Shown: piece by piece, positions 25,684 through 64,000 of the stretch | How positions within the stretch are numbered: position 1 is the stretch's first letter | Layout of the letters: the number at the start of each line of letters is the position of its first letter | Source: an uncultured Pseudomonadota bacterium | GTDB lineage: Bacteria; Pseudomonadota; Gammaproteobacteria; Burkholderiales; Methylophilaceae | Assembly: GCA_903876765.1 (NCBI GenBank) | Contig: CAIRBH010000001.1 | Coordinates: forward strand, 37,426 to 101,425 | Length of the DNA: 64,000 nt | Direction of reading: 5' to 3' | Notes under the pieces: generated by a model | Seen by the model: only the letters and a program-made list of their open reading frames with translations | Told to the model about the DNA's origin: nothing | Database searches by the model: none | Made by a program: the position numbers and the translations under genes

Positions 25684-25780
25684 GGAGGCGAGCCCTGACC
25701 CCGGCACTTGCTCAATAGTTGTGGCTGCTTGCTTCCGCACCTGACCAGGTTGGCTACTTTACAATGCGGGGAGGCCCGCC
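25684..25780 (-). ncRNA. ffs: Small SRP RNA (4.5S RNA)
   Basis: On the minus strand, GGCGGGCCTCCCCGCA... and ...GTCAGGGCTCGCCTCC pair at the two ends. The conserved apical domain reads CAGGTGCGGAAGCAAGCAGCC with the GGAA loop that binds Ffh and its 4.5S-type internal bulge. The length of about 97 bases fits bacterial small SRP RNA. It lies upstream of dnaX on the same strand, a common arrangement. The exact ends are estimated. Confidence 0.93.
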
Positions 25781-60308: not shown

Positions 60309-61589
60309 TCACTCGGCTAGGCGAAAGGCTGGCGCGTAAGCATCCTGCTCTCTGCGTGAAATTCCTAGCTCATTAGCAAGATTTCGCCATTTGCTGACAA
60401 CAGAGCGCACCTGAGTAATAATTGCGTTAGCCTCATCATTCTTGAGCCTGAACAGGTGTGCCACTGATAGCGCTAATTCCAGATCCAATGCATTATCTGT
60501 TTCACTAACGTTGAGCTTGAGCCCAGATGAGTGGGGAGTGGGATTCATGTCGTAGGCTTCAGATAGCTTCCAGCCTTGATTTGGTACAAGGATAAAACCG
60601 TGATTACGTAGATGATCATCGGTATTGGAAACGCACATATTGAACACGATGCGTGTCCACAATTCACGCAGATCTACATTAGTCTGCGCACCGTGATCAA
60701 TCAATACCTGAGCCAACTCAAGATAGCTGACGCCAGAGGATGCGTCATCTCCGTCGGAATGCCCAGTCAGCGTCATTGCCGAGGCAAAGTGCTTGCGTAA
60801 ACCTCCCGCCGTGCGATCAAATCGCTTAATCATGAAGGTATGGCTGCCTGAGGCGAACTTTTGTGCAGAAGCGTCAGCAACATACAGACCACAAGCTTCC
60901 GCCAAGGTATAGGTCAATAACTCCCATGCACCCATATCCGATTCGTCTCTGATGCTGGGAAACTTGGCAATCCATAGCTGGCCTTCAGGATCAATGACGC
61001 TGGCTTTAGGCCTTGCTCCGCCAAGAGACCCGCCTGGTGCAATTAAAATGCGCAACCATTCATCAATTGAATCTGCATTTATTGCGTCATCCCGCTCGAA
61101 TGATTGACTAGCATATTCAAGTTCACGCAACCGAATAAATGGAGGTGCCGCTGTATAGGTGTCATCATCGAGAAATGGGCCATCTTCATCCAGCTTAAAC
61201 CTAAGTGCACCTATGCGATAAAGGTCATGCACACCCAATAGATAATCAGACTCCATCAACCTGATGTCCTTGCGCACCTCTCCCTTGCGCTGTGCTCGCT
61301 CAAGCCGACGGTTCATGAGAAGCTTACCCCAACGATCTGGGCTTGAATCAAGAAATAGGCCGAAATTTTCCTTATCGTGAGGCGCGAATTGCCTACCACC
61401 AAAATTGCTAAGTACAGGGTCAAGCCTTATGTCTATTACGTGTGGATGTGCTAGTGCCTCTGCAGTATATTCAAACTCAAACACTTCGTGACTGCCTTGG
61501 GCGTGCGAATGTAGATATCCAAGCCTAAGTGGCTCATCCAGAGCTTCCCAATCAGCATAAACGATAATGTCATGGGTTCCGCGCGGCAT
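60309..61589 (-). CDS. HipA-type serine/threonine kinase toxin
   Basis: The 426-residue protein is a HipA-family kinase. Its motifs are the Gly-rich loop IAPGGSLGGARPKA (183-196), ATP-binding Lys209 (LWIAKFPS), the catalytic SNTDDHLRNHG (321-331) and metal-binding AYDMNP (345-350). Characterised HipA proteins phosphorylate translation factors such as glutamyl-tRNA synthetase and cause growth arrest. It starts 3 bases after the HTH partner gene, as in hipBA operons. Target and toxicity are not shown here. It marks the start of accessory DNA beyond the flagellar locus. Confidence 0.9.
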   Translation of the reverse strand: MPRGTHDIIVYADWEALDEPLRLGYLHSHAQGSHEVFEFEYTAEALAHPHVIDIRLDPVLSNFGGRQFAPHDKENFGLFLDSSPDRWGKLLMNRRLERAQRKGEVRKDIRLMESDYLLGVHDLYRIGALRFKLDEDGPFLDDDTYTAAPPFIRLRELEYASQSFERDDAINADSIDEWLRILIAPGGSLGGARPKASVIDPEGQLWIAKFPSIRDESDMGAWELLTYTLAEACGLYVADASAQKFASGSHTFMIKRFDRTAGGLRKHFASAMTLTGHSDGDDASSGVSYLELAQVLIDHGAQTNVDLRELWTRIVFNMCVSNTDDHLRNHGFILVPNQGWKLSEAYDMNPTPHSSGLKLNVSETDNALDLELALSVAHLFRLKNDEANAIITQVRSVVSKWRNLANELGISRREQDAYAPAFRLAE

Positions 61590-61592
61590 GCA

Positions 61593-62045
61593 TTATTCCT
61601 TAACTTGCGATTCATTCAGTAGTAAGAGTAAATGCTTAGAGGATATTCTGCCAGAAGCAGATTTATCCTCAGTGGGCTCTGTCGGTCTTTTTGTCGAGGA
61701 TGGCAGGCCTCCTAATTTTATTGATGTTGAAGGTATAGCCCGACGAGGCTTTATATTCTTAACAAGCGTGGCGTCCTGTAGTCGATGTCCCATCACATCG
61801 ACCTTAGCGACTTCTGCAATATCCTGCTCAACCTGCAGCACTTGCATCACGGCTAAGTAAGCACCTATTGTTACACCAGCGCTACCACGCTCAATCGCTC
61901 GCAGTGTCATCACAGACATGCCAGCACGCTCGGCCACTTGCTTAGCTTGCAACCGACGGCGTAAACGCGCCATGCGTAGACGCTCACCCAAATCTTCAAT
62001 GAGACGGGTGGTAGGTGGGAGAAGTGATGCTGTCTTGTTAGACAT
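61593..62045 (-). CDS. HipB-like XRE-family antitoxin/regulator
   Basis: The 150-residue protein has an N-terminal XRE HTH (about 18-76: LGERLRMARLRRRLQAKQVAERAGMSVMTLRAIERGSAGVTIGAYLAVM). A C-terminal tail with Lys/Arg/Ser/Pro of no recognised domain follows (about 85-150); typical HipB is only about 90 residues. Position just before hipA suggests it is the antitoxin and autorepressor. The intergenic region upstream has three TTGCAT-type repeats likely to be its operator. Confidence 0.85.
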   Translation of the reverse strand: MSNKTASLLPPTTRLIEDLGERLRMARLRRRLQAKQVAERAGMSVMTLRAIERGSAGVTIGAYLAVMQVLQVEQDIAEVAKVDVMGHRLQDATLVKNIKPRRAIPSTSIKLGGLPSSTKRPTEPTEDKSASGRISSKHLLLLLNESQVKE

Positions 62046-62088: not shown

Positions 62089-62330
62089 GTTTCACTTTGT
62101 TGGTAAATTTTACATTCTCGTCGTTCTTGGCAAGGATGTCGCTGCCTCATGTGAGCCATGCGTTCTGAGGATTTTCTTTTTTTAGGTTTCTACAGCTCAT
62201 ATTTTATGAACAGCTTGATTTTAATTTTGATCGGAATGCGGCAAAAATAGACGGCGCATTATTGCTTGAAAACTAGATTTGCCAAAAATTATTTTTACAG
62301 TAATCTATTGGAAATAGTTACGCGATAAGA

Positions 62331-62650
62331 CAAATGGTCCTAAAGGGCCGAGCTTGCAAGAGCTAAATTGACCAGACTCAGCACTCTCAATGCTTAATTG
62401 AGACTTAAATGCCGCGCAAGCGGGCGCTACGTTAGTAAGAAGTATCAGACGTACCTTGGAATGCTTCCTTAATTTCAAGCTCTACAAGGATTTGACGAAG
62501 AAGCGGAAAGGTAAAGCCGCCAACGTCTTATCTAAGGTCGAAAGGCTGAAGCTGCTTACTGACATTGTCGAAGGGAGGCCGGCGCAAGCCGGCGAAACAA
62601 GACCCGTAAGGGCTGGCAGCTGGAAAGACAGCGTTAATTATTAACAATGG
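62331..62650 (+). ncRNA. Putative omega-RNA (HEARO-type RNA) upstream of an iscB remnant
   Basis: This 320-base stretch has no convincing gene but several stable hairpins with GNRA loops. These are CCGC-GCAA-GCGG at 62412-62423, GCCGGC-GCAA-GCCGGC at 62578-62593, and CCC-GTAA-GGG at 62603-62612. GGTCC-TAAA-GGGCC sits near 62337-62350. It ends with an AATGGAGCG stretch just before the ATG of an IscB-type (PLMP) protein fragment. In IscB/HEARO loci, a structured RNA of about this size lies immediately upstream of iscB and guides the nuclease. The ends are estimated, the class is inferred from context and structure, and it may be inactive. Confidence 0.6.
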
Positions 62651-62656
62651 AGCGAT

Positions 62657-62836
62657 ATGGCCGTATTTGTATTAGATCGTAGTGGACAGGCATTAATGCC
62701 GTGTACCGAGAAACGGGCGAGATTACTTCTCGTGCGTAATCGTGCCCGAGGGCATCAAATACTACCGTTTACTATCCGACTAACAGATCGGCTTGCAGCT
62801 TCAGTAGCATTTCAAGCCCAATATCAAATGGGCTGA
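62657..62836 (+). pseudogene. Truncated IscB-type (RRXRR/PLMP-domain) nuclease, N-terminal fragment
   Basis: The frame from ATG 62657 encodes only 59 residues. It starts MAVFVLDRSGQALMPC TEKRARLLL and continues ..PFTIRLTDR. This is the PLMP domain (here ALMP) and bridge start found at the N-terminus of IscB/IsrB, RNA-guided nucleases of IS200/IS605-type elements and ancestors of Cas9. The RuvC-I motif (DPGSKTTG-like) that should follow is absent. The frame runs into LAASVAFQAQYQMG and a stop inside a hairpin. RuvC, HNH and C-terminal parts are missing, so it cannot be an active nuclease. Confidence 0.78.
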
Positions 62837-62838
62837 AA
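62810..62838 (+). repeat. Hairpin at the 3' edge of the iscB remnant
   Basis: TTTCAAGCCCA (62810-62820) pairs with TGGGCTGAAA (62829-62838), with one bulged A, around an 8-base loop. It resembles the subterminal right-end hairpin of IS200/IS605-type elements and may mark the transposon end. It overlaps the stop of the iscB fragment. Confidence 0.5.
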
Positions 62839-62883
62839 CAAAAAGAGACATTCATTTGTGTATGCGTCTAATCGACGAAGAAA

Positions 62884-63081
62884 TTAGTGCGCGTCTGGAA
62901 GTTCTTGGGACGTATCAGAAACAGCTTTAAGTTTACCTTTAGGGCTTAATTTCTGATTGATGTCATCTACTTTTTTCTCTAGCTCTTTTTGATCAAAAAC
63001 AGTAAATAAGGCGTGGGATATCTGGTTTTCCAGATCATCCCGCTGCCCCTCAATCACTGTCAAAAACACTTTCTTAGTCAT
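62884..63081 (-). CDS. Small hypothetical protein
   Basis: From ATG 63081 the product has 65 residues (MTKKVFLTVIEGQRDDLENQISHALF...). The longer frame from 63117 adds 12 residues without a ribosome site, while TAAGGT precedes 63081. It has a beta-type N-terminus and a charged helix with KKVDDINQKLSPKGKLKAV. I do not recognise a family. It is divergent from the CHC2 gene, within accessory DNA. Confidence 0.5.
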   Translation of the reverse strand: MTKKVFLTVIEGQRDDLENQISHALFTVFDQKELEKKVDDINQKLSPKGKLKAVSDTSQELPDAH

Positions 63082-63141
63082 GTGGTGTACCTTAGTTATC
63101 GTTTGTGCCTCCAGCATAGCATTTAAATAACGCTACGCAAG

Positions 63142-63177
63142 TCTAGATCCGCTTGTATCAATATAAACGAATCTAGA
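63142..63177. promoter_or_regulatory. Inverted repeat in the divergent gap before the CHC2 gene
   Basis: TCTAGATCCG (63142-63151) and CGAATCTAGA (63168-63177) form a 9/10 inverted repeat between the divergent small gene and the CHC2 gene. An operator is possible. Confidence 0.35.
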
Positions 63178-63294
63178 TTTCTTGTGAGTAATGACGGAAA
63201 CCCGTGCATGTAAATGCGCATCTCAAAAGTCGCAAGACATTTGGTGATTCTCGCCAATTTTAATCATCAACCATTAATCTTGAAAGGATAATAT

Positions 63295-63723
63295 ATGGTT
63301 AGCAATAATTTCGAAGCAGTATATGCAGAAGTACGCGAACTATCATTATCAGACTTTCTTGATAGTGAATTGAACGTAAAAGGCAAACCTTTATCGGGAA
63401 CAGTTCGTTATTCAGAGTGCCCTTGGTGCGGCTTAGCCACAAACAACGCAAGCAATCGTCTTGCTGTGTTGGTAGGTGATCGCATGTGCCATTGTCATCG
63501 TTGTAAAGAGGGTGGAGATGTTGTTAAACCCGCTATGAAACTATGGGGTACGGGGAACTGGGAAACAGCGTTACGTTTAGCAGATAAGTCCAAAAATACA
63601 TCAAACAATGTCAGTAAGCAGCTTCGGTCTGTCGACCTTAGAAAAGACATTGGCGGCTTTACCTTTCCGCGTCTTCGTCAAATCCTTGTAGAGCTTGGAA
63701 CTAAGGAAGCATTCCAAGGCTAG
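63295..63723 (+). CDS. CHC2 zinc-finger (DnaG/phage primase-type) protein, short
   Basis: The 142-residue protein has a DnaG-type zinc-binding domain with CPWC (42-45) and CHCHRC (65-70), embedded in YSECPWCGLATNNASNRLAVLV...KEGGDVVKPAMKLWG. A full primase has a Toprim and often a helicase part after it; none is found here. AAAGGA lies before the ATG. Such short primase-like genes occur in plasmids, phages and ICEs. It may be a truncated or a dedicated small protein. Confidence 0.75.
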   Translation: MVSNNFEAVYAEVRELSLSDFLDSELNVKGKPLSGTVRYSECPWCGLATNNASNRLAVLVGDRMCHCHRCKEGGDVVKPAMKLWGTGNWETALRLADKSKNTSNNVSKQLRSVDLRKDIGGFTFPRLRQILVELGTKEAFQG

Positions 63724-63882: not shown

Positions 63883-64000
63883 TGGACTTCCCCCAATATC
63901 GTAGACATTTTTCAATGTCCGATTTGTTGTTGTTCAAACTGAACGGGGCTTAAATAATTCAAATAACTATGCCTGCGTACACGATTATAAAACACTTCGA
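63883..64000 (-). mobile_element. IS3-family insertion sequence, right end, cut by window edge
   Basis: The plus-strand sequence from 63883, TGGACTTCCCCCAATATCG, looks like an IS3-family terminal inverted repeat. It is followed by the 3' end of a transposase gene in the inward orientation. The element continues beyond the window. Confidence 0.7.
63912..64000 (-). CDS. IS3-family transposase OrfB, C-terminal end only
   Basis: The minus-strand frame reads EVFYNRVRRHSYLNYLSPVQFEQQQIGH then stop. This is the typical C-terminus of the DDE (rve) OrfB transposase of IS3-family elements, which contains the NRxRxHSxLxYLSP motif. The rest lies outside the window. Confidence 0.8.
   Translation of the reverse strand, partial: EVFYNRVRRHSYLNYLSPVQFEQQQIGH

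Follow-up and report, generated by a model that had tools for sequence, protein, structure and literature searches.

Among the described systems closest to the locus analysed here is IscB with its omega-RNA (OMEGA; Rfam family RF02033, HEARO). According to PMC9581776 and PMC9640706, solved complexes of IscB and IsrB show the PLMP domain in contact with the omega-RNA's terminal hairpins, and that of IsrB also contacts the Shine-Dalgarno region. The same papers give the target-adjacent motif (TAM) as NTGA for IsrB (PMC9581776) and NNRR for OgeuIscB (PMC9640706); for OgeuIscB a nexus pseudoknot within the RNA is further described, and TAM-proximal mismatches are reported to have abolished cutting (PMC9640706).

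The present locus lies near the right-hand end of a stretch of 64,000 nucleotides, the whole of which is referred to as the window. A sequence-only reading had interpreted it as an omega-RNA followed by a truncated iscB. Our analysis indicates that it is very likely a non-functional fossil, the decayed left portion of a mobile element of the IscB (HEARO) type, and the relic is predicted from its sequence to have lost both mobility and the capacity for DNA cleavage. The features on which this interpretation is based are listed in Table 1.

Table 1. Features of the relic and its surroundings, in window coordinates.
Feature	Position	Strand	Basis or remark
Left flank, duplicated on contig C30 upstream of another frame	62258-62330	+	Likely host-gene 5' region and insertion site
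Predicted guide of 16 nt, host sequence abutting the element's 5' end	62313-62328	+	Deduced from the IscB layout
HEARO/omega-RNA core, full model length	62329-62583	+	RF02033 match
Altered guide-adaptor hairpin	62335-62350	+	C-run lost; weaker 6-pair TGGTCC-TAAA-GGGCCG can be drawn by hand
Hairpins TCTCAAT-GCTTA-ATTGAGA (62385-62403) and CCGC-GCAA-GCGG (62412-62423, GNRA-type)	62385-62423	+	At the 31-column insert; sequence
omega-RNA terminal hairpins, 5' of the start codon	62578-62612	+	Sequence (GNRA-type GCCGGC-GCAA-GCCGGC, 62578-62593, and CCC-GTAA-GGG, 62603-62612); alignment helices 11-13
Ribosome-binding-like GGAG ahead of ATG	62649-62652	+	Read by eye
Truncated iscB, PLMP domain only, 59 aa	62657-62836	+	IscB homology runs to about codon 54
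Likely deletion junction; TTTCAAGCCCAA resembles the right-end terminus TTTCNCGCGCAA	62810-62821	+	2 mismatches at 11 specified positions
Antisense 115-nt omega-RNA core fragment	63605-63719	-	107/115 identical to 62454-62568; 111/115 to the RNA of the sister genome

A scan of 2.5 kb with RF02033 recovered the proposed omega-RNA as a match to model positions 1-211 of 211 at 63.8 bits (E 5.8e-12). This score is below the gathering score of 83, and HEARO is consequently unlisted when the whole window is scanned at Rfam thresholds. The RNA was located where the sequence-only reading had placed it, except that the element begins at 62329, two bases before the 62331 given there, and GNRA-type hairpins are present as described. 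The folding energy of the RNA lends weak support to a structure (z -1.68, with 6 of 100 shuffles folding equally well); support for a structured RNA comes instead from the covariance model together with covariation over 21 aligned sequences, namely 19 of the 50 relatives' loci, a further locus (L067) and the window itself. With the nexus pseudoknot included, 94.6% of the cells in this alignment are paired, and its covariation score exceeded those of all 500 shuffles and all six slid versions, a score that is favoured by the derivation of the structure in part from the same 21 rows. A helix proposed by RNAalifold between columns 10-12 and 299-301 (5' CCC : 3' GGG), which made the core of the window RNA look broken, was dropped, since the nexus pseudoknot reported for OgeuIscB uses the same GGG.

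In the window row 55 of the 63 named pairs form, including four of four in the nexus pseudoknot. The same number form in the row of a genome of the same genus (G016, hereafter the sister genome), where four of the eight failures are due to contig ends, and five pairs in two helices are changed on both sides between the two. The RNA had been described as looking intact, which holds for the pseudoknot and nearly holds for the core; it does not hold for the 5' end. The outer strand of the 5' guide-adaptor hairpin, the C-run that relatives carry in columns 10-13, is deleted in the window row alone of the 21. Likewise confined to the window row is a change of T2 to A in the second pair of the first helix, giving an A-A mismatch. 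Of 82 columns that are otherwise near-invariant, seven are altered in the window, five of them within the first 26 columns; a relative with a 444-aa IscB frame (L023) also has seven deviations, of 84 columns, so the count alone is no proof of decay. A 31-column insert (columns 76-106), absent from the 20 other rows, forms two good hairpins with its 3' neighbourhood and probably lowers the Rfam score. The sister RNA differs from the window RNA in both respects, with the C-run largely kept and the insert lacking. Compared with HEARO, the window RNA shares the full-length match, the core helices and the nexus pseudoknot, and differs in its score, its lost guide-adaptor strand and its hairpin-bearing insert.

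A promoter scan returned three candidates against a shuffle mean of 2.1 (sd 1.6), which is no clear excess. A candidate picked by eye in the flank, TTGCCA...TAATCT, was unlisted by the scan, and with the count within the range of the shuffles no promoter is claimed.

The 59-codon frame starts 73 bases past the end of the HEARO match. Its assignment to the PLMP domain of IscB was borne out by matches to Pfam RRXRR (E 2.1e-12, over the cut-off, profile positions 1-48) and to NCBIfam guided_IscB (E 2.3e-13, positions 1-48 of 314, at 50 bits against a cut-off of 175). Six PDB sequences match the protein at E <= 0.01, and five of these, from solved IscBs, align over its residues 2-47 (E 0.0022-0.0027). 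The sequence-only reading had been staked on a covariance match and on kinship with RRXRR/IscB proteins, and both were found. At 59 aa the frame lacks the RuvC, bridge-helix, HNH and TAM-interacting domains; the loss of RuvC and HNH had been recognised from the sequence and agrees with the end of IscB homology in the frame.

The first 54 codons contain no stops and, compared with the sister IscB, give a dN of 0.18 and a dS of 1.28, differences that may for the most part be older than the truncation. Records of the 59-aa protein come from six contigs, as two member sequences, which makes an error of one assembly unlikely, even if some of these contigs may share a sample. As the protein search was confined to lengths between 0.55 and 1.75 times that of the query, the many short matches returned are no sign that short forms are common. 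A search of 150 relatives' genomes showed the truncated form in no genome but its own.

The left end of the element could be placed exactly. Positions 62258-62330 are duplicated in the same assembly (G000:C30:291-366; 70 of 76 columns identical), and the two copies cease to resemble each other no more than two bases from where the HEARO match begins. As the duplicated flank ends where the RNA starts, the left end of an IscB element is placed at 62329, and the preceding 16 bases are the predicted guide. Beyond its own genome the flank was matched in 5 of 150 genomes, over stretches of just 23-29 bases. The flank copy on C30 precedes a 151-aa frame that is itself upstream of an AAA ATPase, and a start codon there (ATGAA) begins eight bases past the guide match. 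In relatives the right end runs directly into ATGA, and the spacing on C30 is at odds with a simple insertion ahead of that motif. A further likeness between the two contigs joins window positions 63883-63922 to G000:C30:100-139 on opposite strands (32 of 40 bases). One stretch lies close to where its contig ends and the other close to where its contig begins; these are perhaps insertion-sequence ends at assembly breaks.

A DNA search of the 150 genomes found matches to the unit in three, namely its own genome, the sister genome and G146. The latter two match parts of the unit only, in the sister genome partly because contigs end inside the element. There, contigs C18, C31 and C32 each carry the left end close to a contig end, with a different flank in each case, and C39 starts with an IscB of 468 aa that scores above the cut-off. 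A relative's locus from the Methylotenera sp. E6 MAG (L008, JAUSAG010000014.1) has the same match coordinates as this C39 locus. Breaks of four contigs inside the element would be consistent with a repeat present three or more times. The omega-RNA core of the window is identical to that of the sister element at 143 of 151 positions and the PLMP domain is 74% identical. The order is likewise RNA followed by iscB. The earlier description of the locus as an omega-RNA with a truncated iscB, the relic of an IscB locus, is borne out by the HEARO and PLMP matches. The sister element differs from the window in its 468-aa IscB, its three left ends on three contigs and the presence of a right end.

Right ends were surveyed in 36 hand-chosen loci, comprising 35 of the 50 relatives' loci and L066, which stood in for L008; a scan of relatives' loci covered 38 of the 50 together with L066 and L067. 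The survey omitted loci with a frame open at the contig end (L016, L024 and L051) or with an early stop (L027, L029, L032, L046 and L056), as well as six with complete frames that were simply not included (L045, L047, L048, L049, L050 and L052). A string with at most two mismatches from TTTCNCGCGCAA, followed within 0-6 bases by ATGA, was found in 29 of the 36 loci; at random places in the same loci ATGA was found in 138 of 7200 draws. The remaining seven were misses under this rule, two of which (L028 and L031) have ATGA after a poorer right-end string. A G+C-rich palindrome, imperfect in some cases, precedes the right end in 21 of the 36 loci as found by a stricter pattern. The ATGA of the relatives fits the NTGA motif of IsrB. 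It is also often the start of an apparent downstream gene.

After the PLMP frame of the window, neither the right-end hairpin nor the ATGA flank was found. The best string there, TTTCAAGCCCAA, stands where IscB homology stops and may be a final trace of the right end, spared by a deletion between two copies of TTTCA. This reading is suggestive only, since the PLMP codons of the sister gene also account for seven of the first eight bases of the string. A search of 62805-63600 against the relatives gave its own genome and two matches of about 45 bases only; with no source match for the DNA to the right of the junction, the deletion is deduced rather than seen. A palindrome at 62815-62834, AGCCCA-ATATCAAA-TGGGCT, was rejected as a right end since it is unlike those of relatives (DNA fold z -2.12).

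No IscB over the cut-off was found in the host assembly (1.91 Mb in 53 contigs); with a completeness of 90.3%, the assembly may lack one that the cell has. The two weak IscB-profile matches under the cut-off are the window fragment itself and a broken HNH gene on contig C3. The latter (C3:56873-57088) was rejected as an IscB, as it covers only the HNH part of the profile at 37 bits, contains three stops and was read by eye as an HNH-type relic; an Rfam search of this stretch gave RNase P RNA and no HEARO. A second full HEARO was also not found in this genome, and the search that had been proposed for a full-length iscB and near copies of the RNA yielded no iscB over the cut-off and no further full copy of the RNA. 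The only Y1 transposase match, at 52.6 bits and over the cut-off, contains an internal TGA.

Taken together, the HEARO and PLMP matches, the exact left end, the intact version in the same genus, the missing right-end hairpin, the lack of an IscB over the cut-off, the broken Y1 transposase, the 5' deviations of the RNA and a second omega-RNA scrap 1 kb away argue for a relic. Counted against it were the mostly kept RNA, the equal deviation of L023, the 54 open codons with low dN/dS, the completeness of the assembly and the junction DNA, whose source was not found. Under the relic interpretation, the element would have inserted into a host-gene leader, as suggested by intact relatives sitting directly before ATGA. 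A deletion from about codon 54 of iscB, possibly at the shared TTTCA and probably running into or past the right end, would then have removed everything from RuvC to the right end. The omega-RNA would now be drifting. Were it transcribed, its guide would be 16 nt copied from the host leader, and a protein to use that guide would be lacking. By itself such a relic means little, being one ordinary decayed IscB copy. It is useful as a marked case of decay with an intact version in the same genus, in which the protein is cut down to the PLMP boundary and the 5' guide-adaptor end, not the RNA core, has begun to change.

A non-autonomous mini-element, consisting of a left end, omega-RNA, short ORF and right end and mobilised and guided in trans by an intact IscB element, is highly improbable as an account of the window. 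Units of this kind exist in Acidithiobacillus marinus. One (L055:2659-3204) has both ends, an ATGA flank and a HEARO match of 80.9 bits, and contains a 67-aa frame that joins the start of PLMP to the IscB C-terminus; its 5' part is 79% and 74% identical to two of three intact loci, the third giving no match at E 1e-10. Another (C44:23203-23852; L110:320-960) also has both ends, an ATGA flank and a HEARO match, of 56.1 bits, and its contig gave no IscB-profile match at E 1e-8 in a search of the A. marinus genome. Both HEARO scores are below the gathering score. Like the window, these two loci have an omega-RNA with iscB internally deleted or absent; unlike it, they keep both ends and the ATGA flank and occur in a genome with three full-length IscBs besides. 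The 12-base right-end-like string at the junction would also suit a mini-element in the window. Against it, the unit has one copy only in its own genome and matches in 3 of 150 genomes, of which one is its own and two match only in part; a mobile mini-element was rejected for want of a right-end hairpin, an ATGA flank and a second copy. On sequence grounds the two A. marinus loci, and not the window, are the candidates that better fit the idea of trans-acting omega-RNAs, for which that species provides a cleaner test. In the open-licence literature, an internal deletion in an IscB transposon was not found, nor was ATAAA as an IscB target-adjacent motif; iscB-less elements are not claimed to be unpublished. 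A 317-aa IscB frame in a Lamprocystis MAG (L044:208-1161) joins the start of PLMP to the part before HNH, with the RuvC-I region absent.

Domestication of the omega-RNA, of the free PLMP domain or of both, with a cellular role kept after loss of the nuclease, is highly improbable. The kept RNA core and terminal hairpins, and an open PLMP frame with its start codon and GGAG, speak for such a regulator, as do the published contacts between PLMP and terminal hairpins; the 5' hairpin is changed, however, the low dN/dS need not reflect selection since the truncation, and the truncated form appears in no other of the 150 genomes. A specific form, in which the orphan omega-RNA and free PLMP domain would act as a minimal RNA-protein pair, the 59-aa protein binding the terminal hairpins of its own leader and so controlling it, is extremely improbable; if true, the pair would be a nuclease-free survivor of an RNA-guided system. 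Least probable of all is service in trans to an IscB elsewhere in this cell, as the sequence-only reading had suggested: the guide has a copy on C30 identical at 15 of 16 bases and the assembly is incomplete, but no IscB over the cut-off was found in it, the C30 mismatch is the last base, nearest the TAM, where mismatches abolished OgeuIscB cutting (PMC9640706), and ATGA does not adjoin the C30 copy. A search of the genome for guide plus ATGA, allowing three mismatches, returned its own locus alone, and there the element occupies the downstream bases.

Searches for the element beyond cellular genomes gave no match in phage records and none in viral contigs, for which one pattern was searched. 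Among 72,556 plasmid records two matched, both from Polaromonas and both with weak similarity to the RNA, the better of which adjoins an annotated iscB. Returning to the relic and its surroundings, the antisense scrap about 1 kb away is closer to the RNA of the sister genome than to that of the window itself, and a short primase-like frame terminates in it; this frame matches a CHC2 zinc finger at E 0.0018, below the cut-off, and had no match among plasmids. More than one IscB element has probably visited this region and decayed there. The sole gathering-level Rfam match in the window is a Small SRP RNA at 25684-25780 on the minus strand. Adjoining the relic, also on the minus strand (60309-62045), is a HipBA-type pair composed of a HipA-like protein (HipA_C) and a helix-turn-helix partner.
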